64,000 nt of DNA, taken from assembly GCA_026014585.1 (NCBI GenBank), contig JAOZIA010000024.1, positions 1 through 64,000 of the forward strand, in the 5' to 3' direction. The translations under genes and the position numbers were made by a program. Each line of letters starts with the position of its first letter. Position 1 is the first letter of the stretch. Source of the DNA: Candidatus Bathyarchaeota archaeon. GTDB lineage: Archaea; Thermoproteota; Bathyarchaeia; Bathyarchaeales; Bathycorpusculaceae. The notes beneath the pieces were generated by a model. That model was not told the DNA's origin. It saw only the letters and a list, made by a program, of their open reading frames with translations, and made no database searches. Shown piece by piece: positions 31,371-60,560 of this stretch.

Positions 31371-32165
31371 TTACCAGATTATGCGTTCGGGGCAAGTGTA
31401 AATGTTCATGCGTGAACCCCTAACAAACCCCACCAATGCCATGTTCGCCTTCTCAGCAGACGCCACACCAGAGTTAAGCACCGCCGCCACGGATGCCAAG
31501 ATGGGCAAGCCAACTTTTGCAGCCTTAAAAATCATGTCCCCTGGAACCCTGCCCGTAATAATCATGAAACATTGACCAAAATCCACACGAGCAAGCGCAG
31601 CTTCCCCGATGACCTTGTCCACCGTGTTATGCCTACCCACATCCTCAGAAAACGCAACCATTTCACCCTCCGCCGTAAAAATCCCTGAATCATGCAAGCC
31701 TCCTGTTTCTTTAAAGCCCTTGGCTTTAGTGTTCATTTGGTTGATGGCATCCAGTAGGGTTTGGGCTTTGATTTTAAGCGGAGATTTTACCCGCGGAAGT
31801 TTCTCGTCTTTTTGATATGCGGATGTGCTGGGTTTGAGCAGTGGTACGATGCGGGTGCTTTTGCGGCTGTGTTTCATGCGTTCGTCAAGGTTTATGCCTG
31901 CTTTGAGTTGGATTTTGCAGGAAATCGTTTTTTCATCAGATTCGATTGATTCTATTTCGTCTACGGAACGCAAAATGTCTTCTACAATCATGTAGCCCAC
32001 AGCAAGTTCCTTGAACTGATGCGGACTGGACCAGATAACAAATGAGTAAGTGTTATTGAGTGTGATTTGCAGCGGAACCTCTTCTGCAACCCAGTCCTTT
32101 ATGTGCTGGGCTTTGCCTGTGGAGAGGTCAAGGCGTGTCATGTCAACTTGCCGCAATCCATTCAC
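31371..32165 (-). CDS. fdhD: FdhD-like sulfurtransferase lacking the CxxC pair
   Basis: A 264-residue member of the FdhD family, which transfers sulfur to the Mo/W-bis-MGD cofactor before insertion into formate dehydrogenase. Conserved blocks are present: GGLHDSGIF, FSEDVGRHNTVDKVIG, ITGRVPGDMIFKA and SRMNIYTCPERI. The flexible loop that in E. coli FdhD carries the persulfide cysteines (CxxC) here reads LLKPSTSAYQKDEKLP and has no cysteine. It lies 102 bases downstream of fwdC on the same strand, so its client is probably FwdB rather than a formate dehydrogenase (inference). GTG start. Confidence 0.85.
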   Translation of the reverse strand: MNGLRQVDMTRLDLSTGKAQHIKDWVAEEVPLQITLNNTYSFVIWSSPHQFKELAVGYMIVEDILRSVDEIESIESDEKTISCKIQLKAGINLDERMKHSRKSTRIVPLLKPSTSAYQKDEKLPRVKSPLKIKAQTLLDAINQMNTKAKGFKETGGLHDSGIFTAEGEMVAFSEDVGRHNTVDKVIGEAALARVDFGQCFMIITGRVPGDMIFKAAKVGLPILASVAAVLNSGVASAEKANMALVGFVRGSRMNIYTCPERIIW

Positions 32166-32267
32166 CGCTCAGCGTTCAAAAGTTGTTGGAAACTGATAAG
32201 TCATTCGGCTAACTAACTGCGTTTAGAATGAACAAAAAATAATTAGCCTAAAAAAGGGCTAAAGGGT

Positions 32268-33080
32268 TTAGAGATATTTTTCATAAGATTTCAGCGCTGG
32301 ATTATTTGCTTTGTTGACGAAGAGTTTGCCTGTGCCGTGTTCTGCCATGTCGCCAAGGAACACGTAGAAGGGTCCCTGCACAGATGTTTCTTTGTTAATT
32401 TTGACTTTAGGTTTAACGCCGTCAATTGTGAATGATGGCAGGAGTTCTTCTACTTCGCCGCCTAAAATGATTTTGCCTCCAGTCATGCATGCGCCGATGC
32501 GGTATTCGGTTTGTTTTTCAATAAAGATTACGCCATCAATCATGTGGTAACCGAGGAATCTACCTGCGTTACCGCCAACTTTTATGAGTCCACCACGCAT
32601 GTAACCGCCAACTTCTGTGCCTACATTACCAGTGACAATTATTTGTCCGCCTTTCATGCCAGTGCTTGTGCCTCGATATGGTGAAGCAGTATAATCGCCT
32701 GCATCCCCGTTAACTTGAATAATTCCACCTTTCATTTCGCTACCAGTCCAGTCGCCTGCATTGCCGTTGACAGTGATTTTTCCACCGCTCATTTTTTCGC
32801 CTGTGTGCATGCCTACGTCACTGTTGATGACGATTTCGCCGCTGGTCATGCCTTGCCCAATGCGTTTGACACGTGATACATCTGCGTTGATTGTAATTGA
32901 GGGTGATTCGGTTTTGTCTTCAACGATTTCAAAAAGGTCGCCCAAGGTGAAGTTTCGGTTGCCTTCTGTTAAGGGTAGCTTGGCTATTTCGGAGCGTTTT
33001 TTGCCTTGGAATGTGTCAGGGTTTATGCATGGTGCTTGGATGGGTGCGTCAAATTTGCGTTTTGGGGTTAGAGTTATCAT
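32268..33080 (-). CDS. fwdC: Formylmethanofuran dehydrogenase subunit C
   Basis: FwdC (270 residues) is the beta-helix scaffold subunit. It shows the family's tandem repeats of the type MxGGxIxVxGNAGxxxG (for example MSGGKITVNGNAGDWTG and MKGGIIQVNGDAGDYTA), about seven turns between residues 75 and 210. The domain is homologous to the C-terminal domain of glutamate synthase. Last of the four fwd genes, separated from fwdA by two bases. Confidence 0.95.
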   Translation of the reverse strand: MITLTPKRKFDAPIQAPCINPDTFQGKKRSEIAKLPLTEGNRNFTLGDLFEIVEDKTESPSITINADVSRVKRIGQGMTSGEIVINSDVGMHTGEKMSGGKITVNGNAGDWTGSEMKGGIIQVNGDAGDYTASPYRGTSTGMKGGQIIVTGNVGTEVGGYMRGGLIKVGGNAGRFLGYHMIDGVIFIEKQTEYRIGACMTGGKIILGGEVEELLPSFTIDGVKPKVKINKETSVQGPFYVFLGDMAEHGTGKLFVNKANNPALKSYEKYL

Positions 33081-33082
33081 TT

Positions 33083-34780
33083 TTAGACACTTGCCTTTAT
33101 TGTTAGTTTATCGGAAACCTTCACGTAGTGGTCGGTTACTGGGTAGTTTTCATATTCAATTGTCCAGTACTCTTTAAATTTGCGTTTCATGTCATCGGTG
33201 ATTCTGCAGGCATCTTTGGTTTTCACATCAACCCACATGGTTCTACCCCGCACACCACTGTCAACCACTTGACCATCTTTAGAAACGATGACACCATCTT
33301 TGATCGTGTAAGCTGAATCCGTGAGCGCTTTGCGTGCAGTACGGAACTTTTGGGCAATATCCAAAGTTTCAGGATTCAAATTGTAAATAGCTACGTCCGC
33401 ATCTGCGCCTACGCCGAGGTGACCCTTATTGGGCAAACCTAAGGCTTTAGCAGTACCTGCGCGAGTCATGATTGCGATTTCGTAAAGTGTTAACTCGCGA
33501 TCAATTGAGGGAAGCAAGCTCTTTCTGCGGGCGCTTTTGTGGCATTTTGCAAGGGTAGCGTCGCGAGCTTTCTTGCTGTAGAGCCAAGCTAATACTTTGG
33601 GGTAATCAACAAATGGTCCACCGTTGGGGTGGTCTGTTGTCATGAAGATTTTCCATGGATCCTTAATCAAAAGCGCAATTTCTAAACCAATAGACCACTG
33701 TAACGCATTGACTGGGCTGTTTTTCTTGTAGTGGAAAGGTATGATACCGCCGCTGCTTTCAGTTTCGATGTCACTGTTAACCCATTTGTTGTGTCCACCA
33801 AGCTCGTATAGACTAAACTCGAAGGGACCATCTGCAGTCATGGTTGTGGTGTCAGCAAAAGTGACTTGACCCATGTCCAATGTCATGTGAGTATGAGCGT
33901 TCATGTAGTTGGCGATTTCTTCTGCACCGGATTTGAATTTACCCCAGTTTTCGCCTTTAAATGAAGCAAATTGAATGTGGGTGATGTGGGCAATTGGTTT
34001 GTCACCTGTTTGGAGGTCTTCGAGGGCTTTCATGGTGTCTAAAGTTGTTTGGTAGTTACCTGGAACTCCGAGGTTGTTAGTGTGAAGGTGAATCGTGTGA
34101 GGTAGGTTTAGTTTTGTGTTAACTTTGACTAGCCCACGCATGATTTCTCTGGGTGTAACACAGAAGTTAGGAACTTGATCGTCGATGCTGTGTACATTGT
34201 GACCAAATCCCCAAGATTCCAAGCCACCTGGGTTAACGATTTTGATTGCATACCCCCGTGAAGCCCTCAGAAGCCAAGCTACGAGACGCGCACATTCATC
34301 TACATCGCCCTTAGCAAGGTTTTCCAGTACAAGCCACCAGTCACCCGTTAAAACGTATGTACCTTTATCCATTAATGGAATATCGTTTAGTTCTTCGTGA
34401 GCGTGTTTTGCTTTCAGTGGCGCAATAGAACCGTTGAAGACAGAAGTGTAACCCATTGTTGAGTAGCGGTAACCTGTAACGAAGGTTGAGGGAATGGAGT
34501 AGCCTGTGCCTGCACGGGTGATGGCGGTTTTCTTCACGACATCTTTGACGTGGTCTTCTGGGCGAATCATTCGGCCCATGTTAACTTCTGCGCCTGCAAC
34601 GTGACTGTGAATATCTACTCCACCAGCCATAACAGTCATGCCAGAAGCGTCGATGACTTTGGCTTTACTGCTGACTTTGTTGACGATTTTGTCGTCTTTG
34701 ATGGCTATATCCATCTTTTCACAATTAATCTTGTTCAGAGGATCAATTACAAAACCATTTTTTATAAGAATCTCAGTCAT
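33083..34780 (-). CDS. fwdA: Formylmethanofuran dehydrogenase subunit A
   Basis: FwdA (565 residues) is the amidohydrolase-type subunit that condenses formate, produced by FwdB, with methanofuran at a binuclear zinc site. GGVDIHSHVAG carries the first two histidine ligands (H58, H60), AIKIVNPGG the carboxylated lysine (about K180), HLHTNNLG a further ligand, and MTTDHPNGG the catalytic aspartate. The length is normal. Its start overlaps the fwdB stop by one base (TAATG). Confidence 0.96.
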   Translation of the reverse strand: MTEILIKNGFVIDPLNKINCEKMDIAIKDDKIVNKVSSKAKVIDASGMTVMAGGVDIHSHVAGAEVNMGRMIRPEDHVKDVVKKTAITRAGTGYSIPSTFVTGYRYSTMGYTSVFNGSIAPLKAKHAHEELNDIPLMDKGTYVLTGDWWLVLENLAKGDVDECARLVAWLLRASRGYAIKIVNPGGLESWGFGHNVHSIDDQVPNFCVTPREIMRGLVKVNTKLNLPHTIHLHTNNLGVPGNYQTTLDTMKALEDLQTGDKPIAHITHIQFASFKGENWGKFKSGAEEIANYMNAHTHMTLDMGQVTFADTTTMTADGPFEFSLYELGGHNKWVNSDIETESSGGIIPFHYKKNSPVNALQWSIGLEIALLIKDPWKIFMTTDHPNGGPFVDYPKVLAWLYSKKARDATLAKCHKSARRKSLLPSIDRELTLYEIAIMTRAGTAKALGLPNKGHLGVGADADVAIYNLNPETLDIAQKFRTARKALTDSAYTIKDGVIVSKDGQVVDSGVRGRTMWVDVKTKDACRITDDMKRKFKEYWTIEYENYPVTDHYVKVSDKLTIKASV

Positions 34781-36363
34781 TACGCAGCCACCTTCTTTTT
34801 CACTACTTTCTTAGGCTTAGGTTTAGTTTTAGCTTTAGGACAAACCTTTTCAGCTTTTTCCTTAACCAAGTGTTCAGGCAGTTTAACTTCTGCTTGCTCT
34901 ACCATGTCACCCCGCTTCACTTTGATAGCACGAATCTCGTCAAGAATACGTGTTAAGAGCTGCTCATCACTTAAGATGCCCTGAGGTGCATCGACCACTT
35001 TTTTAAGTGAAATTGGAACAGCATCCATACGATAAGCTGTGCCCTCAGATTCTATACCGCACCACTGTGTCGGAAACACGACATCACCTAGTCTTGAGAT
35101 TGCGTTCCAATCGGGGTTAATTGTGATTAATGGATGCTTCATCATATTTTTGACCGCAGCTTTGGGGAAGTGCGCACCTGGGTCTGCTGAGATTACTAGT
35201 GTTGCGTCGTTGTCGCCACGTTTGAGCAAGTCAACTGCCGTGAATTCGCCAGGATTATACAGCGGGTAACCTTGTGTGAAGTCAAGCGCGTATGGATATC
35301 CTGTTGACCAAGCAAACACAACGTTTGCGCCTGTAACGTTAAAGTGTCCACGCATAGGGGAAATTACGAATTTTGTTTTCCTGTTTAGATCACGAGTTAG
35401 GGCGATTGCAAGTTCAATGTTGCGGAATCTGCCTGCGCTTTGGGTCATGCCTAAGCCGAAGTAGATTACGCCAAAATTGCAGTTCACCATTGCATCAGCA
35501 ACATCTCGCAGGTAATCAACTGAGACACCCCCAACTTTTTCAACGTCCAGTTCTTGGTCGCGAACTAAACATCTTAAGGCTTCAATTATTTCGTAGTCCT
35601 TGTTTGGTTGAACCTGAATAAAGTAGTCTGCTGCTTCCGCAGTCATGGTTTTGCGCACGTCAACCACAATCATTTTACGCCCTTCTTTTTGGATGGTTTG
35701 TGGTGGCGGGTTAACGGTACAAACATCTGGGCGGATTGGTGGGCGGTAACCTGGGAGAATTCTACGTGACGCTGCCTCAACTTTTTTGCGGCTAGCTCCA
35801 CCCTTCATTTTTTCTAAGTAAGATTTCCATTCGCTTGCTTCGAAGCGGCCCTCTGTGAAGGCTGTATATCGTTCAACATGACGGGGATGAGAAGTCCACG
35901 GATTGCATGCCCAGTAAACAATTAAGTCTGCACGGTGCCTGATTTGCCCAAGAGTTGCGGTTGGAAGACCAATTTCTTGCGTTGCCATAACTGATGGACC
36001 GTGGCATACACTGCAACAGTTATCAAGGGTTGACCCTAATTCTTCAGCTAACATTACACCAATGCGTTGTGCTTCACTGGTGGAACTGGTCCAACCGAAA
36101 AGCAAGGGATATTTGGCGTCTGTTAGGATTTCTGCTGCTCGGTGAATTGCCTCATTCATTGTAACTGGTATAAGTTTGCCGTCTTTGCGTATGTGAGGTT
36201 GCAGGATGCGTTCGTCACTTTTGTATCCGTGAACCATTTTAGCTTCGCATACAGAGCAGCCATTTTTCATTTTTACAATTTCATTGTTTTTCACGGTTAC
36301 TTCTAGGTCATCACAGAGGCAACCGCAGATTGGACAAACAACAGATTTTACTTCTGTGGTCAT
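34780..36363 (-). CDS. fwdB: Formylmethanofuran dehydrogenase subunit B (Mo/W catalytic)
   Basis: FwdB (527 residues) reduces CO2 to formate at a tungsto- or molybdopterin centre and carries one [4Fe-4S] cluster (CPICGCLC...CSVCEAK, residues 10-40). The metal ligand is a cysteine, C120 in CCSVCHGPS, not selenocysteine. The protein is about 90 residues longer than usual: an insertion at about residues 175-229 (after FTEGRF, before IVVDVRKT) and a lysine/proline-rich tail ending KPKKVVKKKVAA. It overlaps fwdD by four bases and fwdA by one. Confidence 0.95.
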   Translation of the reverse strand: MTTEVKSVVCPICGCLCDDLEVTVKNNEIVKMKNGCSVCEAKMVHGYKSDERILQPHIRKDGKLIPVTMNEAIHRAAEILTDAKYPLLFGWTSSTSEAQRIGVMLAEELGSTLDNCCSVCHGPSVMATQEIGLPTATLGQIRHRADLIVYWACNPWTSHPRHVERYTAFTEGRFEASEWKSYLEKMKGGASRKKVEAASRRILPGYRPPIRPDVCTVNPPPQTIQKEGRKMIVVDVRKTMTAEAADYFIQVQPNKDYEIIEALRCLVRDQELDVEKVGGVSVDYLRDVADAMVNCNFGVIYFGLGMTQSAGRFRNIELAIALTRDLNRKTKFVISPMRGHFNVTGANVVFAWSTGYPYALDFTQGYPLYNPGEFTAVDLLKRGDNDATLVISADPGAHFPKAAVKNMMKHPLITINPDWNAISRLGDVVFPTQWCGIESEGTAYRMDAVPISLKKVVDAPQGILSDEQLLTRILDEIRAIKVKRGDMVEQAEVKLPEHLVKEKAEKVCPKAKTKPKPKKVVKKKVAA

Positions 36364-36767
36364 ACTGTTTCCTTCCCAAACTCAACTGTTAGAAGTTCAT
36401 TTAATGTAAGAACATTTTCTTCTGTGGATTCAACTTCAACGGGGAAGCCTTTGAAGAGGGGCATGCCCATGCTATAAGTGTCATCGCCACAAACCGCGTT
36501 TGCCCACGTTCCACATGGAATGAAAACCATTCCGGGCATGTTGCCGTATGGATATTTTCGTGCTCTTACGACAACTGAGCCAAATTTGGATGTGACTTTT
36601 ACTTTTGAGTTTCCTCGTAATCCCAGTTTTGCCATGTCAACTGGGTCCATAAAACATACCGCGGCGCTGTCAAAGTATTCTTGTGATCCTTTACCCATTT
36701 CTTTTCCAACGCCTTGATCAATCGTTCTACCAGTAATTAGAGTCACGCGTAATTTTTTCTCCACCAT
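36360..36767 (-). CDS. fwdD: Formylmethanofuran dehydrogenase subunit D
   Basis: FwdD (135 residues) is the molybdopterin-dinucleotide-binding beta-barrel subunit that covers the FwdB active site. RVTLITGRTIDQGVGKEMGK and SAAVCFMDPVDMAKLGL match the family, and GMVFIPCGTWANAV the cofactor-binding end. I use the ATG at 36767 after GGAG; the frame extends to 36821 but that part is not FwdD-like. First gene of the fwdD-B-A-C operon. The electron-carrying subunits fwdF and fwdG are not in the window. Confidence 0.94.
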   Translation of the reverse strand: MVEKKLRVTLITGRTIDQGVGKEMGKGSQEYFDSAAVCFMDPVDMAKLGLRGNSKVKVTSKFGSVVVRARKYPYGNMPGMVFIPCGTWANAVCGDDTYSMGMPLFKGFPVEVESTEENVLTLNELLTVEFGKETV

Positions 36768-36798
36768 GGTCTCCGACCTACTGATAAAGGTAACCATC

Positions 36799-36810
36799 AT
36801 ATATTTAAGA
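36799..36810 (-). promoter_or_regulatory. TATA box of the fwd operon
   Basis: Read on the minus strand, CTTAAATATATG lies about 32-43 bases before the fwdD ATG, a good archaeal TATA at the expected distance for a leader of about ten bases. The gap to 36932 holds only AT-rich sequence. Confidence 0.5.
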
Positions 36811-36932
36811 GTAAAGTTCAAAAAAATAAAAAAAACTCCATGAACAATACGTATTATGAAGCAGGAATTGCCATAAAAAACACTGCTTCAAAGATAGGAC
36901 ATTAAACACATAAGAGCTAAAATTAATTTAAA

Positions 36933-48325: not shown

Positions 48326-48613
48326 TTAGGTGGTTTTCCAACTGGTTTTAATGGCGTCCTGCTCGCAAGCTATTGTGCAGGGGGTTTTGCTTGATTCGGG
48401 TTTGCAGGGGCTGCAGGTGTAGCGGAGTTTTTTGCGTTCCTGCTCCGTGACTGAAGCCACAGTTTTATCGTCAAGGTCGATGAGCATGGTTTCCAGTTGC
48501 AGCGCGCTGTTGGGGCAGGCGGTGACGCATTTTCCGCAGCCATTGCATTTGTCTGCATCTATTACAATGTAGTATTCGCCTGAACCATCACTGTAACCGT
48601 AATACGTAATCAC
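48326..48613 (-). CDS. Ferredoxin-like 4Fe-4S protein of the HgdB-type operon
   Basis: A 95-residue iron-sulfur protein. CNGCGKCVTACPNSA (from residue 19) binds one [4Fe-4S] cluster. The C-terminal half has a looser set (CSPCKP...CTIACEQDAI) for a second. It is the last gene of the operon, 13 bases after the larger ATPase, and is the likely electron donor to the ATPases, as the ferredoxin beside benzoyl-CoA reductase genes is. GTG start. Confidence 0.85.
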   Translation of the reverse strand: MITYYGYSDGSGEYYIVIDADKCNGCGKCVTACPNSALQLETMLIDLDDKTVASVTEQERKKLRYTCSPCKPESSKTPCTIACEQDAIKTSWKTT

Positions 48614-48626
48614 ACGGGTTCACCAA

Positions 48627-49526
48627 TTATGCTTTTTGTGCCTTGTCATAGAGTGCCTTAGCCAGTAGTGCCGCGCCGATTGCACCAGCAACCATTGGGT
48701 CTAAGCCGCCCTCGCGCCAGTTAGGCGTGGGAAGACACTTAAGATTAAGAATAGTTTCGATTCTTTTAACGATACCGACGTTCTTAGATTGCCCGCCCGT
48801 AATCACGAGTTCACGTTCTAATCCGACACGGTTAATTAGGTTACTCATGCGCACAGCCATCGCCCTCGTGTAAGCCGCCATGACTTTTTCTTTAGACCAG
48901 CCCTTACGCAACAAATTCATAGCTTCGGTTTTTGCAAACGCCACACATGTGCAGCTGACTGGTGGGGGTTCCTCATCAACTTTTAGAGACATTGCACCGA
49001 TTTCCTCGATGGGTACCTGTAGTAGGTCAGCAAAGACTTCCATGCCTCTTCCTGTTCCCGCGGCGCATTTATCATTCATCAAAAAGCTTGTGACTTTGCC
49101 TGTTTCATCGATTTTTATGGCTTTAATGTCCTGTCCACCAACGTCAAGCACTGTTCGCACGGTTGGTCCCCAGATGTAGTTGGCGCCTTTTGCGTGGCAG
49201 GCGATTTCTGTAATGGCTTTGTTTGCCATGGGAACGTTTACGCGTCCGTAGCCTGTGCCTACAATGTATTTGAGGTCGCCTGTTTTGAGTCCTGTATCGT
49301 CCAGTGCCATGCCTAAGGCTTTGTTTGCGCTCTCAGGACTGTTGGAACCAGTGCGTGTGATGCCGTATGAGTAGATTTCACCGTTAACCGCTACTGCCGC
49401 TTTAGAACCCACAGAGCCAACATCCACACCCGCAGTGATTATGTCGCCGTTTTTCCATTTTTTGCCTTCGACAATGCGGTGGTACTCTTGCCAACGCCAA
49501 AACTCCACGCCGTTTCCATTGCTCAT
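48627..49526 (-). CDS. BcrA/D-HgdC family ATPase (activator), larger paralogue
   Basis: A 299-residue ASKHA-fold ATPase that drives low-potential electrons into HgdB/BcrBC-type proteins. GVDVGSVGSKAAVAV is the phosphate loop, VLDVGGQDIKAI the second nucleotide loop. Cluster ligands are C154 (NDKCAAGTGRG) and C192 or C194 (SCTCVAFAKTEAM). ITEIACHAKGA matches the BcrD/HgdC-specific region. It overlaps the smaller paralogue by four bases (ATGA), so both are made together, probably as a heterodimer like BcrA-BcrD. Confidence 0.9.
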   Translation of the reverse strand: MSNGNGVEFWRWQEYHRIVEGKKWKNGDIITAGVDVGSVGSKAAVAVNGEIYSYGITRTGSNSPESANKALGMALDDTGLKTGDLKYIVGTGYGRVNVPMANKAITEIACHAKGANYIWGPTVRTVLDVGGQDIKAIKIDETGKVTSFLMNDKCAAGTGRGMEVFADLLQVPIEEIGAMSLKVDEEPPPVSCTCVAFAKTEAMNLLRKGWSKEKVMAAYTRAMAVRMSNLINRVGLERELVITGGQSKNVGIVKRIETILNLKCLPTPNWREGGLDPMVAGAIGAALLAKALYDKAQKA

Positions 49527-50311
49527 TTTGACGCCTCCTTAGCTGCTCTGCTCGCTGCAACCAATGCTGCACCTAACGCGCCCACATACTCGGGAAACTC
49601 TGGAATAACAATGTCAATGTTCAATTTGCGTTTAAGTGAGGCTACAAAGCCCACATCGTTAGCAACGCCGCCAATTAGCACAACTGTGGGGTTTACACCA
49701 AGACGGTGCACCATGCTGGATACGCGGTCAGCCATTGCATCAAAAACGGCTCTTGCGATTTCAGGTTTGGATTCTTGACGATGAATAAGCGAGACCACGT
49801 CAGATTCGCCAAAAATTACGCAGGTGGCGTTGATTGGGCTTGCACGCTCTGCCTTAAGTGAAAGAGGTCCCATTTCGTCGATTTTAACTTCTAATGCTCT
49901 TGCCATTGCCTCAATAAAAGCTCCAGCACCTGCGGCGCAACGTTCGTTAACTACAAAATCAGACATGATACCGCGCTCGTCACATTTTACGGCTCGGGCT
50001 TCTTCGGCTCCAACGTCGATGATTGTGCGAGCTTGTGGGACAAGATATACACCTGCTTTGGCATCTGCGCCCATCATGCTAACTGTACTGGTTTTGTAGG
50101 GGGCGATTTCCATGCCTGAACCTGTCGCAACAAAATTAGCGACGTCACTTAGGGTTATGTTTGCTTGTTTGAGTGCTTCTTCTACGGCTTGCTCTGCTGC
50201 TTTGGTTGGGTCGAATCCGCAGAAGATTTTGGCGCGTCCAAGCACTTGCCCGTCTTTGAGCACGACAGCTTTGACGCTTTGGGTTCCTAAATCCATTCCT
50301 ACACTAATCAC
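49523..50311 (-). CDS. BcrA/D-HgdC family ATPase (activator), smaller paralogue
   Basis: A 262-residue ASKHA ATPase of the same family. GMDLGTQSVKAVVL is the phosphate loop, IIDVGAEEARAVK the second loop, with cluster cysteines C125 (NERCAAGAGAF) and C164 (NATCVIFGESDVV). In place of the usual I-x-C-H-A-x-G stretch it has SMMGADAKAG, so the two ATPases are clearly distinct subunits. It lies 16 bases after the HgdB-type gene. GTG start. Confidence 0.9.
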   Translation of the reverse strand: MISVGMDLGTQSVKAVVLKDGQVLGRAKIFCGFDPTKAAEQAVEEALKQANITLSDVANFVATGSGMEIAPYKTSTVSMMGADAKAGVYLVPQARTIIDVGAEEARAVKCDERGIMSDFVVNERCAAGAGAFIEAMARALEVKIDEMGPLSLKAERASPINATCVIFGESDVVSLIHRQESKPEIARAVFDAMADRVSSMVHRLGVNPTVVLIGGVANDVGFVASLKRKLNIDIVIPEFPEYVGALGAALVAASRAAKEASK

Positions 50312-51680: not shown

Positions 51681-52391
51681 TTACATGATTACCGTAAGGG
51701 TGTTTATGATGGTGCCTACCCCAAGCACAATGAGCAATAATGCTCCTGCTATTGATATATACCTTCTAAATAAAGGTGCTTTATTTAACAGCCAACCCGT
51801 TAATCCACCCGCCAAAATGATAAACGGCGAAATTGCAGTACCTAACCCAAATAGAACTGCCATCGTTAAACTACTTAGGGGTGCAGTAAACGTTGCAGAG
51901 TAACCCAGTATCAGAATCAGCGGTGGACAAATAATTAAACCTCGTGTTAACCCCAGCGTGAAAGCTTTAACGTCAAATCTGCCCCGTAACCCCTTAGAAT
52001 CAGAGAGAGCCACGGCGTCTTTGATGCCGCAGTCATGAGAGCCACGACGAGTTTTTATGAGAATTTGGGCTCCAATGATTATGGTAACTATGCCAAAGAA
52101 GATGCTTGAGTAAACACTAAAGGCTGCGCTCTCAGAGATAGCTGCATCAGTGAAATACTTAATTAAACCACTAACAGCACCAACTAAAGCACCAATTAAG
52201 GCATATGAAACCAGCCTGCCCGAATTAAAAATCAGTGTAACTTGGACGCCTTTTTTAAATCCCGCCCCGATTCCCGCTATGTAACTGGCTATGTAGGGCA
52301 GACAGGATGCTGTGCAGGCGCTTATGCCGTAGATAAAGCCGAATACAAACACTGACAAGTACGGGTTTGCAAGCTCAGGAATAAACGACAT
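51681..52391 (-). CDS. CcdA/DsbD-like transmembrane protein
   Basis: A 236-residue protein with about six membrane helices, matching the CcdA/DsbD-beta group that carries reducing equivalents across the membrane by a cysteine pair. GISACTASCLPYIASYIAG in the first helix region and LIICPPLILILGYS after the loop provide membrane cysteines. TauE/SafE-type transporters are an alternative. It is the first gene of the operon, 24 bases before the HgdB-type subunit. Confidence 0.78.
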   Translation of the reverse strand: MSFIPELANPYLSVFVFGFIYGISACTASCLPYIASYIAGIGAGFKKGVQVTLIFNSGRLVSYALIGALVGAVSGLIKYFTDAAISESAAFSVYSSIFFGIVTIIIGAQILIKTRRGSHDCGIKDAVALSDSKGLRGRFDVKAFTLGLTRGLIICPPLILILGYSATFTAPLSSLTMAVLFGLGTAISPFIILAGGLTGWLLNKAPLFRRYISIAGALLLIVLGVGTIINTLTVIM

Positions 52392-52493
52392 GGTTCCCAG
52401 TTCACTTTAAGCTAAATTATGGTTGAATAGGGAAATTTAAAGATTGCAGAGAACACCACCTTAAAATCAGGGTTAGAAGGATATCATTTCAAA

Positions 52494-53117
52494 TCATTTT
52501 TCAAACCAGAAATCAGGCATGATAACTTTTGGTGCTTTACCCTTTTTGACACTAAAATTTAAAACTGCCTTTACTACCTCAGTTTCAAATTTCATAGTGA
52601 AGTCGTGCCCACCAATTAAGCCGCCATTATTTAACAAGGGATAATAATTTTCTAAATCTCGGAAACACTGCTCAAACGTGTGCACTCCATCAACATACAC
52701 AAAATCCAAGTTATTCGGAAGAAGCTTTGCAGCTTCATCGCTTGTGACTCCAAGAAAGGATATTTTGTTATTATTTTTAAGAGCTGAGTAAAGATTTAGT
52801 TCGTTAACATGAGTATTTAATTTTCCTATATAAGGGTCCACACAATAAAGCCTTCCGATATTGAGACACTCGAGTAAACTCTTGGCATTTTTACCATAAC
52901 CAAAACCGATCTCGCATCCAACTAAAACTTTGTTCCCAAAATGTTCCTTCAAAAAAAGAGTGAACGGTCTTGGATTTCTATTAATAAAATCATCTGAACA
53001 CATTTTTATCTCTTCATATAACTTTGGAGCAACCATTTTCGCAACCGCATAAACAAAATTATGTCTGATAGATGTTATCTTGACTTTTGAAACGGACATA
53101 TCCAATTTAACGACCAT
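52494..53117 (-). CDS. Class I SAM-dependent methyltransferase (methyltransferase 24-like)
   Basis: A 207-residue Rossmann methyltransferase. VGCEIGFGYGKNAKSLLE is motif I, LYCVDPYIG the acidic loop, DFVYVDGVHTFEQCFRDLEN the family-typical block (aspartate and histidine) and GGLIGGHDF the post-motif. Such enzymes often act on sugars or surface glycans. Codon composition is more AT-rich than its neighbours, so it may have been acquired. The 265-base gap upstream (53118-53382) holds no gene I can support. Confidence 0.78.
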   Translation of the reverse strand: MVVKLDMSVSKVKITSIRHNFVYAVAKMVAPKLYEEIKMCSDDFINRNPRPFTLFLKEHFGNKVLVGCEIGFGYGKNAKSLLECLNIGRLYCVDPYIGKLNTHVNELNLYSALKNNNKISFLGVTSDEAAKLLPNNLDFVYVDGVHTFEQCFRDLENYYPLLNNGGLIGGHDFTMKFETEVVKAVLNFSVKKGKAPKVIMPDFWFEK

Positions 53118-53382
53118 CCTTGCACAAAGAAGGAATCTTTGTATTTTCTTAGTGCATACAAGCGTATAGAAATCAAAACGATTTAAAGATTATTAATGAG
53201 TGTAGTGCTCATTCTGACCAAAATATGATGCCTCATTAGAATTTTGGTAGTTATAAGAATGAAGGGGAACGTTGAACCTTTCACTTTTCCATTTTCTAAA
53301 AAGCGATTTTTGGACTAAACTTTTATCATGGAACTAATAAGCGACCTAATTCCGAGTCCACTTTAAGCCTTAAAATCTGGCG

Positions 53383-54417
53383 TTAGGTGGTGGGCATTTC
53401 CTGCTCGTTTGCAGGACGCAACCAATCGCGGGACCGAAAGAGGGTTTTACCGCCAAATTTCACCTTGAGAGTGTCTTGGTAGGGGCACATTTCTACGCAG
53501 CGGAAACAGTTCATGCACATGGATGTTTTGATTTTGCCGCCCTTTTGTTCGTAAACTTCAGTAACTTGCACTGGGCACACTCGCAGGCATATACCGCATT
53601 TGGGGCATTTCTCCTCATCCTTATCAATATACATCATAGGCAGAGCCTTTAAGCCGACTTTGTTTAGGCAACCCGCGGAAGCGCCTGAAGGACAGAACCT
53701 ACACCAGAATCTGCGCACCAAAAAAGAAGCCGCCAACATCACCGCCACGAAACTGACAACAGCAAACAGTAAACCTCCTGAGAGGCTCTCAACGGTGACT
53801 GCATTAGCGGCAATGCCAACATCTGAAGCATAACTGCCAGTGCCATAATGAATAATATCTGAAACATACGGGAACCCAAAGTTTAAGCCACCCAGCGAAA
53901 GACTGCTTTCCCATGGAACAATAAGGGGTTCAAGTGGAGCCAGCAGAATCATCCAAAACCGATAGGACCCTCTCAGAATTTGCATCCACACCCAAGAATT
54001 AAATTGGGAACCACCAATCACAAACGGCAACACAACAATCACGCCCAAAATCACGTATCGTAGGCGGTTGAGAGTGTTGTTGAGTTTTTGAGGCAAAAGT
54101 TTGTAGGGGATTTTTAGGGCTTTGCGGATTGCAGTTACTATATCCATGTAGAATCCGAAGGGGCAAATCCAGCCGCAGAAGAATCTGCCCAGAAAAATCG
54201 TGGCTAAGAAAATGGCGAGGAGCACGTAGAGGTAGAATTTGGTGACGCTGTAAATGTAAAATATGGCTATGACTGAGATTAGCTGGATGTAGAGGCGTAG
54301 GTAGCTGACTTTGGTGGATAAACCTTTTTTCCAGATTTGAATAATGAGCACGCCCGCTAAGGCTAAACCCGCAATTATAACCAGCAGCAGTAGGTTACCT
54401 AACAGGTCTATATCCAT
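53383..54417 (-). CDS. NapH-like membrane polyferredoxin
   Basis: A 344-residue membrane protein with five or six helices and the NapH/NosR/RdxA-type motifs: CGWICPFGFYMD (near residue 86), RFWCRFCPSGASAGC (near 236), and two cytosolic [4Fe-4S] motifs CPKCGICLRVCPVQV and CMNCFRCVEMCPYQD (about 272-320). These proteins pass electrons between the quinone or cytoplasmic pool and outer or membrane oxidoreductases. It follows a secreted CARDB protein gene by 63 bases in the same direction. The redox partner is unknown. Confidence 0.88.
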   Translation of the reverse strand: MDIDLLGNLLLLVIIAGLALAGVLIIQIWKKGLSTKVSYLRLYIQLISVIAIFYIYSVTKFYLYVLLAIFLATIFLGRFFCGWICPFGFYMDIVTAIRKALKIPYKLLPQKLNNTLNRLRYVILGVIVVLPFVIGGSQFNSWVWMQILRGSYRFWMILLAPLEPLIVPWESSLSLGGLNFGFPYVSDIIHYGTGSYASDVGIAANAVTVESLSGGLLFAVVSFVAVMLAASFLVRRFWCRFCPSGASAGCLNKVGLKALPMMYIDKDEEKCPKCGICLRVCPVQVTEVYEQKGGKIKTSMCMNCFRCVEMCPYQDTLKVKFGGKTLFRSRDWLRPANEQEMPTT

Positions 54418-54480
54418 ACGTCCCTCTCCCTAAACCTAACAAGTCAAGTAAGAAACAAGAAAAAAGGTGACGCGGCGCGC

Positions 54481-56721
54481 TCATGGCGGATTGATAACCC
54501 TTGTGTTCCATTCTCTAAGATACGCCAAGTGCGCCTCATCATACGGGTAGCTTTCCGCCGTTGTGTACGGGAACCCGCTCATGCCAATAAACGGCAAGGG
54601 GTCAACTGTGAAGGGGAAGCCATAGCCCCAGTTGCCATCTATGTCTTTGAACCAGTCTGCCACAAACACGAAGTAGTCACGAACCATTCCTGGGGCAGGC
54701 GGTGCTAAATCATCAGCAGGGAACAGCAGTTCTATTTGGTCTGCTTGGCGTCCAATCACGTACATGTTGTCTGCTTCTAGTACCAGTGGTGTTACGTCGC
54801 CGAGTTTGGTGAAGTTGCCTGATGCAGCTGATGGAGTGTCATACAATGAGGTCAGGGTTGCGATTGGGTTTATCCGCTGGATGGTTGTTGGTGCCTGATT
54901 GCTTATGTCTACACCGATGTAATCGTAGGTTACGTTCCAGAAGTTGTTAATTCGTAACTGATAATCGGTTATGCCTTCGGGGAATATGCCTGTTAGGTTT
55001 ACTGCGAAGGTTCTTGCCACGTAATCCGCGGGGATAGGCATGGCATCAGAAGAAACACGTACCCAATTGCCGGTTGCATCCATGACTTCCAAGTATGGCG
55101 GTGGAGTAACAGGTGTGCCGTCGGGAACTATGCCCTGAGCTACTGCCTCATCAAACAGGGCAAGCCACTCATAATATGTTTCAGCAGGACCCCAATCCAC
55201 GATGCCGTTAATTACCAGTTTAATTTGCTCTGCCTCTGATAGGTCGCCTAAGTCAAGAGTTAAGCGGTTCCACTGTAAATTGTTCCATGCGGGGCTTTCT
55301 GTTCCGCTGGTTCCAGGCGAAAATACGCCGTCTAAAGCGTAAATTGTAGATAGCACGTTTTGTCCTTTCTCGTTAACTGCAGAAAGGGGATGTCTGATTG
55401 AGTATGTGTCTGTTGTGTAAATTGTGTCAGTGTAAACGGGATTCATGTAGTTTGCCAGTGAAGCATACGCGTCAGTTCCTACGGGGTGGTCAACAGCTAA
55501 CATGTACGCTGCATCTAAGTATATGATTTCGTTCCAACGCTGTAGCAGAGTTATATCAAAATAGTTTGACCCATTAACTTGCCGTGGCACCAACTCGGCG
55601 CTACTGATTTTTGCGTGGTCCCAGGGGTTTCCGCCGACAAAAGTTGTTGTGCCGTCATGGTTAATGTAGCCGATGTAGCCAAGCCAGCCGCCGTGGGAGA
55701 TTTCAGCGACATACACGTTTTCCTGCCCGTTCCAGTAATAAAGTGAGGGACATGAGGAGCCGCCTTGGTAGTATGCGTTTAGGTCCATGCGGTCTTGCAG
55801 GTTGATTGTTCGGGTTGGACTAGACGCGGCGTAGTCACCCCAGTTGATGAAGGGGTATGTGCCTGTTGGGTCTGTTTGTGGCAGAACAATGAGGTGTGGA
55901 CCAGCATCAAATAGTTGGGTAACAGGAGTTGTATATGGTACGCCGTCTATGGTTATGTCCGCGGCCACACCTATTTGACCGTAACAGTGAATGCTAAGGG
56001 TGTGTTTTCCTTCTGGAACAACATCAAAACCGCCCTTCAAACCGTTAACCTCAACAGAATGCCAACCTAACGTGTCAGCGGACACTTGGATAGGCATAGG
56101 AATAGATTTTCCCGGTAAAATGGTGTAATTTTTATCCTGAACAACAACACCATCAACTGAAACTAACAGGTTATATGACCCCGCGGAGCCACCAGTGTTA
56201 GACAGCTTAACTGTAACAGTAACAGTCTTACCAGGCCACGATTCACGGGGAGATACAACCAAATCGCGAATGCTGATTTGTGCGGGTCTTGCATTGGGGT
56301 TTTCATCGGCTGGAAGAATCGTAAATGAGCCTGATGCTCCTCCAAATTCCACGGTGTACTCGCCAACTTCGCTGCCAGTTACAGGTAGCTCAACGGTGGT
56401 GCTGTTTCCGCCGTTTAAGTTACCTGTTGAATTGTCCACAGTTTCATCATTTATTTTAAGTTCGATAGAGTAGTCACCTGCTACATCACCAACATTTGTT
56501 ATGGTAGCGGTGAGTGAGGCAGATTCGCCAAGTTTAATCTCGGCGGGGGTGATTGCGAGGTTGGACACTTCAAAAGCGGGGGGTTTGATGGTGTCGCCCG
56601 TGTTTGTGGTTTGGGTGAACTGTGGATATAACTGCAAGTATGCTGCAGCGGCTAAGCTGATAACAATAATGTCAATGAGAAGAATAACTTGCAACTTCGT
56701 GATTGCTCTACGTTTTTGCAT
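54481..56721 (-). CDS. Large secreted CARDB-domain protein
   Basis: A 746-residue exported protein held by an N-terminal signal anchor (about residues 9-30). Two CARDB-type adhesion domains follow (about 48-135, ITPAEIKLGESASLTATITN; about 145-235, VVSPRESWPGKTVTVTVKLS), then a PEGA-like domain (TLSIHCYGQIGVAADITIDG). The C-terminal about 450 residues form an unidentified beta-rich unit starting SCPSLYYWNGQENVYVAEIS. No C-terminal anchor is present. Upstream of and probably co-transcribed with the NapH-like gene, so it may be its outer partner (inference). Confidence 0.75.
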   Translation of the reverse strand: MQKRRAITKLQVILLIDIIVISLAAAAYLQLYPQFTQTTNTGDTIKPPAFEVSNLAITPAEIKLGESASLTATITNVGDVAGDYSIELKINDETVDNSTGNLNGGNSTTVELPVTGSEVGEYTVEFGGASGSFTILPADENPNARPAQISIRDLVVSPRESWPGKTVTVTVKLSNTGGSAGSYNLLVSVDGVVVQDKNYTILPGKSIPMPIQVSADTLGWHSVEVNGLKGGFDVVPEGKHTLSIHCYGQIGVAADITIDGVPYTTPVTQLFDAGPHLIVLPQTDPTGTYPFINWGDYAASSPTRTINLQDRMDLNAYYQGGSSCPSLYYWNGQENVYVAEISHGGWLGYIGYINHDGTTTFVGGNPWDHAKISSAELVPRQVNGSNYFDITLLQRWNEIIYLDAAYMLAVDHPVGTDAYASLANYMNPVYTDTIYTTDTYSIRHPLSAVNEKGQNVLSTIYALDGVFSPGTSGTESPAWNNLQWNRLTLDLGDLSEAEQIKLVINGIVDWGPAETYYEWLALFDEAVAQGIVPDGTPVTPPPYLEVMDATGNWVRVSSDAMPIPADYVARTFAVNLTGIFPEGITDYQLRINNFWNVTYDYIGVDISNQAPTTIQRINPIATLTSLYDTPSAASGNFTKLGDVTPLVLEADNMYVIGRQADQIELLFPADDLAPPAPGMVRDYFVFVADWFKDIDGNWGYGFPFTVDPLPFIGMSGFPYTTAESYPYDEAHLAYLREWNTRVINPP

Positions 56722-56782
56722 ACTAAATTAAAAAAGCCTCAATTATAAATAATTTTCCAAAACCTAAAAAATATTTATCATT

Positions 56783-57252: not shown

Positions 57253-58752
57253 TTAACATATTGGGAATTGAATCGTGAATTTTGTGCCTTTGCCTTCTTT
57301 GCTTTTAAAACTGATGGTTCCTCCATGTGCTTCAATCACGCGTTTGCAAACCGCCAATCCGAAGCCTTGCCCACGGGGTTTGGTGGTGAAGAGCGGCGTG
57401 AAAATCTGGGGGCTAATCGCGTCTGATATGCCTATGCCTTGGTCTTGAACAGTAACGGAAACCTCGTCATGATTTATTATTTGTGCTTTTATGATAAGTT
57501 TTCCTTCTTTGGGCATTGCTTGCACAGCGTTAGTTACTAGGTTAATCATGACACGTTTTAGCAGTTGAAAGTCAACTTTAACCAGTGGGAAATTACGGGA
57601 AAAATGAACCTGAACCTTAATGCAGTCAGGAAATGCGATGATTTCTAAAACATCTTTAACCAGTTTTTTTAGGTCAACTTGGTTTTTTTCTATTCGGATG
57701 GGCTTCACAAAATCCTGCAAGTCAGAGACGATTTTATCCATGTAAACTGCCTGTTCCTCTATTGCACGTATGCTTTCCTGCAAGTTAGCCTTCAAATCAT
57801 AATCAGAAATAGACTCAACAGCATCTTTAGCCAAATAAAGTTCCCCCGTAATTGTCTGCAGGGGATTACGAAGGTCATGCCCAACCATACCCGCGGTTTG
57901 CCCAATCGCCACCAAACGCTCGGAGTCTTTTAACTGCTTGGTTCGGTCTTCCACAACTTTTTCCAGTGAATCAGCATGTTTTTGCAGGTCAGTTTGCAGC
58001 TGTTTTTGTGCGGTGATATCTCGGACTAAAGACCATATTCCCACAACGTTCCCTTTACCATCGGTTAATCGCCAAGTTCTAACTGAGGCTGGAAAAATAG
58101 TGCCATCCTTTCTTTGGTATTCCCTCTCAAAAACGATAGATTTTCCAGTGCGCAACACTTTTGCCACAACCACATCACGTTGTTCATGCCATTTTTCAGG
58201 CAAAAGATTCTGAACAGAAAGCCGCTTTAGCTCTTTTTTGGTGTAGCCCAGCATTTTAGCGTATGCTCTGTTGCAATCTATCATTTTTCCCTGTAGGTCA
58301 CGTGCCATGATGCCGTCGCGGGTTGTCTCGTAGAGTTGGCGGTACTTTTTTTCAGATAAAAGCAATTGTTGCTCAGTTTTTTTGCGTTCAGTAATTTCAT
58401 TTAGCATTATTATTATATATTCTTTTTTTGGGGCGTATGCATAGGTTTGATACCACTTGTTTCGGGCAGGAAAATACACTTCACGGATTTTAGGGACACA
58501 ATTTAGGGCCACTTGCCCATAAAATTCCAAAAAATTCTTAGTATAAAATAAGGGAAACTGGGAAAAACATTTGTTAAGCATCTGGTCGCGTCTTAATTTT
58601 AATACTTGACAAAATGCGGGGTTAACATCTATAACAAGCAGGTCAAGTGGAACCTCATTTCTGTGAAGAACTTTACAGAGCAAAACACCAAGCAATGAAT
58701 CACCAAATAAAATACGGAAGTGCTCAGCACTTATTTCTATATCATTTAGCAT
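57253..58752 (-). CDS. PAS-domain sensor histidine kinase
   Basis: A 499-residue cytosolic kinase. The N-terminal PAS-like domain spans about 10-115 and a second PAS plus PAC about 130-255 (YETTRDGIMARDLQGKMIDC, then WSLVRDITAQKQLQ). The dimerisation/phosphoacceptor helix contains GHDLRNPLQTI (histidine near 293). The ATPase has NLVTNAVQAM (N box), VQDQGIGISD (G1) and GQGFGLAVCKRV (G2). No membrane segments. No response regulator is adjacent, so its partner is elsewhere. A palindrome and AT-rich box precede it. Confidence 0.9.
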   Translation of the reverse strand: MLNDIEISAEHFRILFGDSLLGVLLCKVLHRNEVPLDLLVIDVNPAFCQVLKLRRDQMLNKCFSQFPLFYTKNFLEFYGQVALNCVPKIREVYFPARNKWYQTYAYAPKKEYIIIMLNEITERKKTEQQLLLSEKKYRQLYETTRDGIMARDLQGKMIDCNRAYAKMLGYTKKELKRLSVQNLLPEKWHEQRDVVVAKVLRTGKSIVFEREYQRKDGTIFPASVRTWRLTDGKGNVVGIWSLVRDITAQKQLQTDLQKHADSLEKVVEDRTKQLKDSERLVAIGQTAGMVGHDLRNPLQTITGELYLAKDAVESISDYDLKANLQESIRAIEEQAVYMDKIVSDLQDFVKPIRIEKNQVDLKKLVKDVLEIIAFPDCIKVQVHFSRNFPLVKVDFQLLKRVMINLVTNAVQAMPKEGKLIIKAQIINHDEVSVTVQDQGIGISDAISPQIFTPLFTTKPRGQGFGLAVCKRVIEAHGGTISFKSKEGKGTKFTIQFPIC

Positions 58753-58903: not shown

Positions 58904-59239
58904 TTAAGGCTTTTTCTTAGGCTTTTTTAAACCATCAACAGCATGATGCAACGCCAAAACAGGATGATACAAAAGCATACGTGGACCCGAATAACGCATA
59001 ATTTCTTTCACCTTAACTTTCATATCAGAACGATAACAGTGAATCAAACATTTACCACAGGTGCTTTTCTTTTCCCCAAACGGACACTTATCCAACCGCA
59101 TCTGCGCATACTCAAAAAATCGGGTACATTCAGGGCATAATTCACCGTTTTTGTTGCCATGATGGTTTTTGCAATAAATCTGTGTCATAGCATGAATTGT
59201 CTTTTTTTCTCTTGCTATTCGTGGACCTTCATTTGCCAA
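58904..59239 (-). CDS. YgbA-like protein (nitrous oxide-stimulated promoter family)
   Basis: A 111-residue cysteine-rich protein of the YgbA_NO family, which in E. coli is induced by nitric oxide and helps cells recover from it. Visible are IYCKNHHGNKNGELCPECTR, then KCPFGEKKSTCGKCLIHCY (seven conserved cysteines) and the R-Y-S-G-P-R-M-L-L-Y-H-P-V-L-A segment. The length is typical. It may bind an iron-sulfur cluster or zinc; this is inferred. Confidence 0.85.
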   Translation of the reverse strand: MANEGPRIAREKKTIHAMTQIYCKNHHGNKNGELCPECTRFFEYAQMRLDKCPFGEKKSTCGKCLIHCYRSDMKVKVKEIMRYSGPRMLLYHPVLALHHAVDGLKKPKKKP

Positions 59240-59375: not shown

Positions 59376-60560
59376 TTAAGTTAGAAAAGCTTTCTGGGTA
59401 GCTTTTACCTTTTTTAAAAGCACAAAAACAACCCCAACTCCAACAAGCAAAGGCACAACGACGAACACTGAAAGCTCCGGAATCCAGTTTACACCTGTCC
59501 AAGCAAAGATTTGTCCACCATCACCCACAGCCCAAGCACCTGTCCCAGTACCTGAAACGCTGTGCACCATCGACACACCGTTCAAAGCAGTAGATCCAAG
59601 GATTGTACTATTGGTTTTATCGCCCCATTCTTCACCGTTCCAGTATAATGCCAGTCCGTCATCACCCACCGCCCACGCATTATTGACTGAGTTCATTGTT
59701 ATGGAACGCAGTGGCGAAGTAAGTGTATCAGTTACGTAACCAGTTGTAGAGTTTACATCTCCACCCATGTTTATTCTGTCCCAGACAGTCCATGATGAAT
59801 CGTCCATGGAGAAAATTACGCCGTTACCGCTACTTCCACCGCAGGCCCATCCGCTGGTTGCACTGGTCATTTGAATTGCATATAGGTCTTGGTTTGTAGG
59901 CAAGTTTATCGTGTCCCATCCTATTCCTGTGAGATGGACAAATGTTCCGTTATCTCCTACAGCCCACCCGTCATAGGTTGCATGTATCATGCTTACACTT
60001 CTCAAAGTACTAGAAGCCACATCTGTTAATCCATACCACGTACCAGCACTATATGAAAGCGCTATGCCGTTTGCACCAACCGCCCAGCCTGACATACCTG
60101 AATCATGCATTATAACTGAGTACAAGGTGGCGTTGATTGTATCTTGGGTGGTGACTCCAGGATCAAAAGAAATGGTTGTCCAAACAGTCCAAGCTGCACC
60201 ATCATAATTTAGAATTATACCGCTGTCACTATTACCTCCCACTGCCCAGCCGCTTGAATCGTTAACAAAACATACTGAGTAAAGGTTCTCCGTGGTGGGA
60301 CTGGTTTCGGTTACCCAGTTTTCCCCGTCCCAATGAATGATTACTCCGCCGTCTCCCACTGCCCATACATTTGATGCAGCTAAATTATCACTAGTAGAAG
60401 AAGTGCTCACTACGTGCACAGCATTTAGGTTTGCTGTTGTGGGGCTGGTTATGCTTGTGATGCTAGAAGTTTGAGCAAAAGCACCTGCAAAAGTTAAGCT
60501 TAGAGTTAACGCGCACAGTATCAAAAGTACCTTAATGGAAAATTTTCTCAATTTATTCAC
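59376..60560 (-). CDS. Secreted seven-bladed propeller protein with C-terminal anchor
   Basis: A 394-residue surface protein. The signal peptide covers residues 1-29. A repeat containing GWAVGxxG...W occurs seven times (NVWAVGDGG, GWAVGGNS, GWAVGANG, GWAVGDNG, GWACGGSS, AWAVGDDG, AWAVGDGG), predicting a seven-bladed propeller related to BNR/photosystem-assembly-like repeats. The tail IPELSVFVVVPLLVGVGVVF plus KKVKATQK is the same sort of C-terminal sorting or anchor signal seen in other secreted proteins here. The ligand is unknown. Confidence 0.75.
   Translation of the reverse strand: MNKLRKFSIKVLLILCALTLSLTFAGAFAQTSSITSITSPTTANLNAVHVVSTSSTSDNLAASNVWAVGDGGVIIHWDGENWVTETSPTTENLYSVCFVNDSSGWAVGGNSDSGIILNYDGAAWTVWTTISFDPGVTTQDTINATLYSVIMHDSGMSGWAVGANGIALSYSAGTWYGLTDVASSTLRSVSMIHATYDGWAVGDNGTFVHLTGIGWDTINLPTNQDLYAIQMTSATSGWACGGSSGNGVIFSMDDSSWTVWDRINMGGDVNSTTGYVTDTLTSPLRSITMNSVNNAWAVGDDGLALYWNGEEWGDKTNSTILGSTALNGVSMVHSVSGTGTGAWAVGDGGQIFAWTGVNWIPELSVFVVVPLLVGVGVVFVLLKKVKATQKAFLT

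Follow-up and report, generated by a model that had tools for sequence, protein, structure and literature searches.

A NapH-like polyferredoxin and a CARDB surface protein encoded beside a probable double-cubane-type reductase operon in a Bathyarchaeia genome

We analysed a stretch of 64,000 nucleotides from Candidatus Bathyarchaeota archaeon (contig JAOZIA010000024.1, positions 1 to 64,000 of the forward strand; hereafter, the window) with respect to two neighbouring genes at 53383-56721, encoding a NapH-like membrane polyferredoxin and a large membrane-anchored surface protein with CARDB domains. The pairing of these two genes is not accidental, and the pair belongs with the reductase operon located at 48-52 kb. 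We consider a functional link among the CARDB, NapH-like, CcdA-like and reductase genes as highly probable, and far more certain than the mechanism that we propose for it; in particular, we hold only tentatively, and with somewhat less than even confidence, that the two proteins are the membrane and the surface part of one redox machine. The evidence lies in gene content, conserved linkage, joint distribution and the positions of motifs in the sequence. The genes concerned are the following.

53383..54417, minus strand: NapH-like membrane polyferredoxin (344 aa), short type without outer-loop cysteines
54481..56721, minus strand: membrane-anchored CARDB surface protein (746 aa), with an N-terminal helix, CARDB Ig-like domains and a C-terminal 'CPSLYxWNG' domain
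51681..52391, minus strand: CcdA-like (DsbD_2) membrane protein, C26/C30/C155
50328..51656, minus strand: double-cubane-type HGD-D reductase
49523..50311, minus strand: activating ATPase 1 (BcrAD/BadFG; CoA_E_activ)
48627..49526, minus strand: activating ATPase 2 (CoA_E_activ; BzdQ-like)
48326..48613, minus strand: ferredoxin

The first-pass annotation of the window had described two genes 63 bases apart on one strand, and both open reading frames were found on the minus strand, separated by a gap of 63 bp (54418-54480). The four iron-sulfur or cysteine motifs ascribed to the polyferredoxin are all present in the sequence, as CGWICP (C81, C85), CRFCP (C239, C242) and two 4Fe-4S ferredoxin motifs (C271-C281 and C301-C311), with Pfam Fer4_5 and Fer4_10 above cut-off (the Fer4_5 membrane module, PF12801, with 56.1 bits against a cut-off of 22). 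Its score with the NapH model TIGR02163 was 77.5 bits, far under the cut-off of 213.05, and 'NapH-like' is therefore the proper label. The outer protein of 746 residues was likewise recovered, with one predicted N-terminal membrane helix and CARDB domains (PF07705, 39.9 bits against a cut-off of 22.7).

Matches to the CARDB protein were obtained in 36 of 61 genomes (its own included) and in 30 of the 32 genomes of its genus; two of the 36 are weak (genomes G041 and G052). In a phylum-wide set of 398 Thermoproteota genomes, in which the polyferredoxin was counted at E<=1e-60, there were strong matches to the CARDB C-terminal domain in 32 genomes, to the reductase in 31 and to the polyferredoxin in 30, with weak matches to the domain in two more (G060 and G410). 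Precisely, 31 of the 32 genomes with a strong domain match have the reductase and 30 have the polyferredoxin, the two left over (G002 and G032) carrying longer NapH-like proteins; no genome of this set has the reductase or the polyferredoxin without the CARDB domain, and in the remaining 366 none of the three has a strong match. The association persists when only the two families that hold these genes are considered (31/1/0/11 among 43 listed genomes, the 11 lacking all three), with Fisher values for the co-distribution that ignore the relatedness of the genomes. In the set of relatives, one genome (G034) carries the reductase and NapH-like genes but no CARDB gene.

The conservation of the gene pair, proposed as a check by the first-pass annotation, was found in many genomes, though not in all, and the tie of the pair to the reductase operon was borne out. 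Among 45 genomes with CARDB (several of these loci end at contig edges, and the near-identical rows G048, G057 and G306 are counted separately), the CARDB gene lies upstream in the same one-strand run as the reductase in 19, the window included, beside a NapH-like gene only in 12 and at a contig edge in 1. The loci examined do not include the partial match of G008, and L031, which we read as the same contig as L048, is left out of the counts. The core block has the order CcdA-like (DsbD_2), NapH-like, HGD-D reductase, two activating ATPases and ferredoxin. Of 41 reductase entries (among them L053, which duplicates the L098 gene in cut form), 36 have CcdA no more than two genes upstream, and in 30 the immediate upstream neighbour is a NapH-like gene; the junctions inside this downstream block are tight. 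CARDB adjoins a NapH-like gene repeatedly and in either order, with arrangements such as CARDB-NapH-CcdA-NapH-reductase (G286) and CARDB-10 bp-NapH-10 bp-reductase (G351). The genes thus look like two modules, CARDB-NapH and CcdA-(NapH)-reductase, which some genomes combine. In the window both modules are joined, with an AT-rich methyltransferase segment between them.

52392..53382, strand not applicable: AT-rich segment (34-35% GC) splitting the operon, with a Methyltransf_24 methyltransferase gene at 52494-53117, minus strand
53336..53380, minus strand: degenerate copy of the CcdA 5' end (original at 52380-52422), just downstream of the polyferredoxin gene, 45 aligned columns

The operon genes beside this segment have a GC content of 44-48%. 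The degenerate copy aligns with a score of 48, a value above anything obtained with 1956 random window pieces (maximum 32) or 2000 shuffles (maximum 43), and we read it as a decayed operon junction, that is, the scar of an insertion into a formerly continuous operon.

On the basis of hydropathy and the positive-inside rule, the polyferredoxin is predicted to have its N-terminus outside and its C-terminus inside, with all cysteines at the inner face or at the inner end of a helix. We considered 66 NapH-like sequences from the fetched loci, in which a CxxCPx[RK] motif in the presumed outer loop was present in 19 of the 20 sequences of at least 390 residues and in none of the 46 shorter ones (fragments included). 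The sole long exception, L056, is a CARDB-paired gene product of 528 residues, and three long forms (L067, L136 and L142) are found inside a CARDB-type operon. FMN_bind (PF04205) and ApbE (PF02424) had no match in the genome, which is 95.6% complete, and the same searches gave matches in 4 and 8 of 14 control genomes, respectively. Flavin-based NapH-like systems make use of these two, and a flavinylated system was therefore rejected here.

Two further arrangements of NapH-like genes were observed. At L100:6591-9187 (own genome, contig C21) a 557-aa protein combines a NapH-like polyferredoxin with an N-terminal portion that lacks an Fe-S motif and looks Ig-like by eye, and its gene overlaps a NosD-like beta-helix gene by 4 bp. 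At L110, L113, L114, L066 and L068 a conserved, apparently exported protein of ~223-230 aa precedes a long NapH-like gene; that of L110, the only one scanned, had no Pfam family above cut-off.

For the CARDB surface protein two regions were distinguished besides the CARDB domains.

56638..56694, minus strand: N-terminal membrane helix, residues 10-28, with intramembrane Asp17
54484..55770, minus strand: C-terminal domain, ~residues 318-746 (~430 residues), without Pfam or NCBIfam model

The earlier statement that the C-terminal 450 residues match nothing holds for Pfam and NCBIfam, in which no family scored above cut-off, and fails for profile comparison, by which the region is akin to domains in two further archaeal proteins (99.2% probability, E 1.9e-19, 268 columns). 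With those two proteins as queries, matches were obtained in 10 of the 398 genomes, four being CARDB-type matches already counted (G054, G209, G320 and G402). No relatives were found on plasmids with three queries; bacterial chromosomes were covered by a single contig scan, which gave L031 only. The domain may resemble the C-termini of bacterial ASPIC (UnbV_ASPIC, CRTAC1) proteins; PF07593 (UnbV_ASPIC) had no match in the own genome nor in any of the 14 control genomes. The landmark of the domain is CPSLYxWNG, whose C, P, L, W and G are invariant among 33 aligned sequences; among its 50 invariant positions, 31 are aromatic, Pro, Gly or Asp, one is Cys and one is His. The intramembrane Asp is present in 39 of the 44 rows of a CARDB tree covering 44 of 57 entries, from which eight loci were removed by hand as fragments or near-duplicates and L134, L135, L138, L139 and L140 are also absent because the motif pattern missed them; all of these five show the Asp, L135 and L139 being unpaired. 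The five tree rows without the Asp are all unpaired copies, and L067 and L136, nested among them, keep it and sit in the operon, a pattern that needs two tree changes.

As regards the downstream operon, the CcdA-like protein matches DsbD_2 with 73 bits (cut-off 24.9), and in 37 CcdA-like sequences CxxxC[LTI]P was present in 33 and CPP in 30. The reductase is probably, judging from sequence comparison, an ATP-driven metal-cluster reductase of double-cubane type: it aligned with solved double-cubane proteins at 281 bits, against 83 bits with BzdN, and scored 336.5 bits with the double-cubane model NF040772, 13.5 under the cut-off of 350. The cluster ligands of BzdN are Cys36/73/100/263/293/327, as given in PMC11971306, and it is this list, not that of the double-cubane protein itself, which served for the cysteine comparison. 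Five of the six ligands align directly with reductase cysteines (C83, C121, C319, C353 and C389); BzdN Cys100 has no aligned cysteine, but C151, located six residues further along, pairs with a cysteine of the solved double-cubane proteins. The genome has two HGD-D genes only, on different contigs (C5 and C23), and the operon has one HGD-D subunit. Activating ATPase 2 scored 365.5 bits with BzdQ, near the cut-off of 380.2.

If the two proteins form the membrane and surface portions of a single redox machine, the ferredoxin would hand electrons to the two activating ATPases in the cytosol, and these would pump low-potential electrons into the double-cubane-type reductase. The NapH-like polyferredoxin would swap electrons with this cytosolic part at the inner face of the membrane, and the CcdA-like protein would ferry reducing equivalents across the membrane as a cysteine pair. 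The CARDB protein would be anchored through a single helix, with the intramembrane Asp as a possible docking point for the membrane partners, and its large domain, devoid of a known cofactor, would lie outside, where it could bind a substrate, a partner or the cell surface. Complex formation, the outward movement of electrons, the role of CcdA as carrier and docking through the Asp are what we infer from gene order and motifs. For other systems, with flavinylated partners, it has been proposed that NapH-like and DsbD proteins carry electrons across the membrane (PMC8238504). In its most specific form the proposal would be an ATP-powered membrane-spanning reductase, running from the double-cubane engine through polyferredoxin and CcdA to the surface, where the new domain would present the substrate; this form we regard as speculative and doubtful.

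Several observations weigh against a single redox machine of this kind or against the electron route first suggested for it. The trans-membrane electron route through the polyferredoxin, suggested by the first-pass annotation, was not upheld: since the cysteine motifs are all on the predicted inner side and the predicted outer loop has no cysteine, no path through this protein to an outer partner is visible, and no outer-loop cysteine was present among 43 parsed shorter NapH-like relatives either. If electrons cross the membrane at all, the CcdA-like protein is a more likely carrier than the polyferredoxin, because it has paired membrane cysteines and the window polyferredoxin has no outer-loop motif. 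No recognised cofactor-binding domain was found in the CARDB protein in the Pfam and NCBIfam scans. A second conserved cysteine is absent from the window CARDB protein and from the operon member L145, and the CWFK motif is absent in 14 of 57 CARDB entries, some being fragments; a disulfide in the CARDB protein is therefore unlikely to be essential, and was rejected as an essential target of CcdA. A CARDB-specific clade of polyferredoxins was also rejected, since the rows with CARDB as sole partner take 7 changes on a tree of 60 of the 66 sequences (six loci were removed by hand). Structure predictions for the window and L031 were unusable, with a mean predicted local distance difference test (pLDDT) value of 36.3 for the polyferredoxin and 38.2 for the C-terminal region of the CARDB protein. 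Retention of the Asp tracks operon pairing in a suggestive way only, because many unpaired CARDB copies also keep it. CARDB was classed as alone in 13 of the 45 genomes, counting G364 and G009, in which a same-strand reductase operon follows after one or two possibly spurious open reading frames (70 aa; 194 and 127 aa), and only 19 of the 41 reductase entries, some located at contig ends, share a run with CARDB. In nine loci (L083-L091), CcdA and the reductase have no NapH-like gene either between them or immediately upstream. The transcription signals seen around the CARDB gene were the following.

54450..54465, minus strand: T-rich, archaeal-terminator-like tract TTTTTTCTTGTTTCTT in the 63-bp gap, by eye
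56741..56752, minus strand: TATA-like TTATTTATAATT, ~20-31 bp before the CARDB start, by eye and without statistics

The T-rich tract belongs with the points just listed. A terminator between the two genes would, according to the first-pass annotation, speak against their coupling; a terminator-like tract is present in the gap, and the pair is nonetheless conserved in many genomes. A run of at least five T follows the CARDB gene in 13 of 16 gaps before CcdA and in 10 of 13 before NapH-like genes; none of 109 NapH-reductase, reductase-activase and activase-activase gaps has such a run (many of these genes overlap), and 1 of 26 CcdA-NapH gaps does. The CARDB gene ends like a transcription unit, and may be expressed separately, because its frequency of T runs matches that of other same-strand genes: for T runs within 60 bases and gaps of at least 40 bp, 22 of 35 CARDB genes against 159 of 278 unlabelled genes. 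A scan for sigma-70 promoters and terminators, in which archaeal signals are not modelled, gave no excess (7 promoter-like signals against 9.0 expected, and 4 terminator-like against 5.5).

Some of these observations would suit a CARDB protein that is an ordinary surface or S-layer-type adhesin, with a merely historical neighbourhood and cooperation limited to CcdA, the NapH-like protein and the reductase. The T-rich ends after the CARDB gene, the 13 of 45 genomes in which it was classed as alone, the other neighbours of second CARDB copies and the occurrence of the related domain in other proteins all point that way, but the near-complete joint distribution with reductase and polyferredoxin, and the recurrent adjacency to NapH-like genes in either order, make it distinctly unlikely. 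The NapH-like and CcdA-like proteins might otherwise hold a metal site or cofactor reduced while an outer protein assembles. A maturation role of this type is ascribed to CcoG and NosR/NosD, and a NapH-like paralogue of the own genome overlaps a NosD-like gene (L100; 25.4 bits with Pfam NosD against a cut-off of 23.6, and 47 bits with TIGR04247, far under the cut-off of 300). The conserved block, however, offers no further enzyme as a possible client, and the invariant residues of the outer domain (one Cys and one His of 50) are unlike a metal site, so that we consider this quite improbable. Electrons could also flow inward, the NapH-like protein taking them from a membrane or outer donor and passing them to ferredoxin for the ATP-driven reduction of a cytosolic small molecule, with CARDB as scaffold or donor-binding subunit. 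All cysteine motifs of the window polyferredoxin are on the predicted inner side, the ferredoxin gene closes the operon, and NapH of Wolinella is proposed to oxidise quinol, with the electrons passed on (PMC5928378); against this, neither a quinone nor an outer donor came to light (the search did not extend to quinone genes), and DsbD proteins are described as giving electrons to outer thioredoxin-like proteins (PMC8238504). We consider inward flow as unlikely.

Two other readings concern the reductase itself. A role of the operon in aromatic degradation, as a benzoyl-CoA reductase, is disfavoured and hardly credible. Activating ATPase 2 is near the BzdQ cut-off, and PMC10477458 reports 'BcrACD' in Bathyarchaeum tardum, which is in culture, but the operon has one HGD-D subunit, the two HGD-D genes of the genome are on different contigs, and the subunit scored 281 bits to double-cubane proteins against 83 to BzdN. 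According to the same paper, B. tardum has three adjacent 'BcrACD' genes and no BcrB, and benzoate inhibits its growth; these genes may correspond to the window's operon. It is very unlikely that the ATP-driven reductase reactivates an oxidised corrinoid or another low-potential cytosolic cofactor: the corrinoid activating enzyme was not found in B. tardum, where another reductant might substitute, but this enzyme is not always required (both points from PMC10477458), and the conserved CcdA, NapH-like and CARDB genes would be left unexplained.

Compared with known systems, the CcdA-like protein has the DsbD_2 domain and paired cysteines of the DsbD/CcdA thiol-redox carriers; unlike them, it is tied to a reductase and a polyferredoxin, and the recurring genes around it include no thioredoxin-like partner. 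The Carboxydothermus double-cubane system, which has one activase, differs from the window's operon, which has two different tandem activases and includes ferredoxin and membrane genes. The Carboxydothermus protein and its reductase (PDB 6eno, 7yyl) share with it one HGD-D subunit, the cluster cysteines and ATP-driven activases. The activase pair and the HGD-D family also recall benzoyl-CoA reductase (BzdNOPQ, BcrABCD), which, unlike the window's operon, has two different catalytic subunits. With NapH/NosR/RdhC-type proteins and NapH-like extracytosolic systems, as described in PMC8238504 and PMC5928378, the polyferredoxin shares the PF12801 module, a CxxxCP-type motif (the second one being CxxCP in the window protein) and a partner protein outside, and with NapH and NosR also two 4Fe-4S motifs. 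Unlike the NapH-like flavinylated systems of these sources, the window's genome has no FMN_bind or ApbE match, the outer partner is a CARDB protein, and there is linkage to a probable ATP-driven reductase.

In the open-licence literature searched we found no description of the linkage of these genes, and nothing on benzoyl-CoA reductase together with CcdA, NapH and archaea; the sole match for double-cubane and Bathyarchaeota concerns the activation of methyl-coenzyme M reductase (PMC12176620). According to PMC11971306 it is unclear what the reactions of double-cubane proteins mean physiologically, and the conserved link to a polyferredoxin, a surface protein and a trans-membrane thiol carrier places these proteins in a concrete and testable context. 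Operons of this kind in Bathyarchaeia should not be counted as benzoyl-CoA reductase. The surface domain, in turn, has clear sequence landmarks and is unmodelled by Pfam and NCBIfam.

Elsewhere in the window, a YgbA_NO family protein (58904-59239; PF11756, 'Nitrous oxide-stimulated promoter', 142 bits) adjoins a PAS-domain histidine kinase (57253-58752). An apparently exported protein of 394 aa (59376-60560) contains several units of WAVGD type and matches no Pfam family above cut-off. The region 31371-36821 encodes FdhD and GXGXG, amidohydrolase and molybdopterin-binding domains and resembles a formylmethanofuran dehydrogenase; at L105-L107, a NapH-like gene stands beside homologs of these genes.

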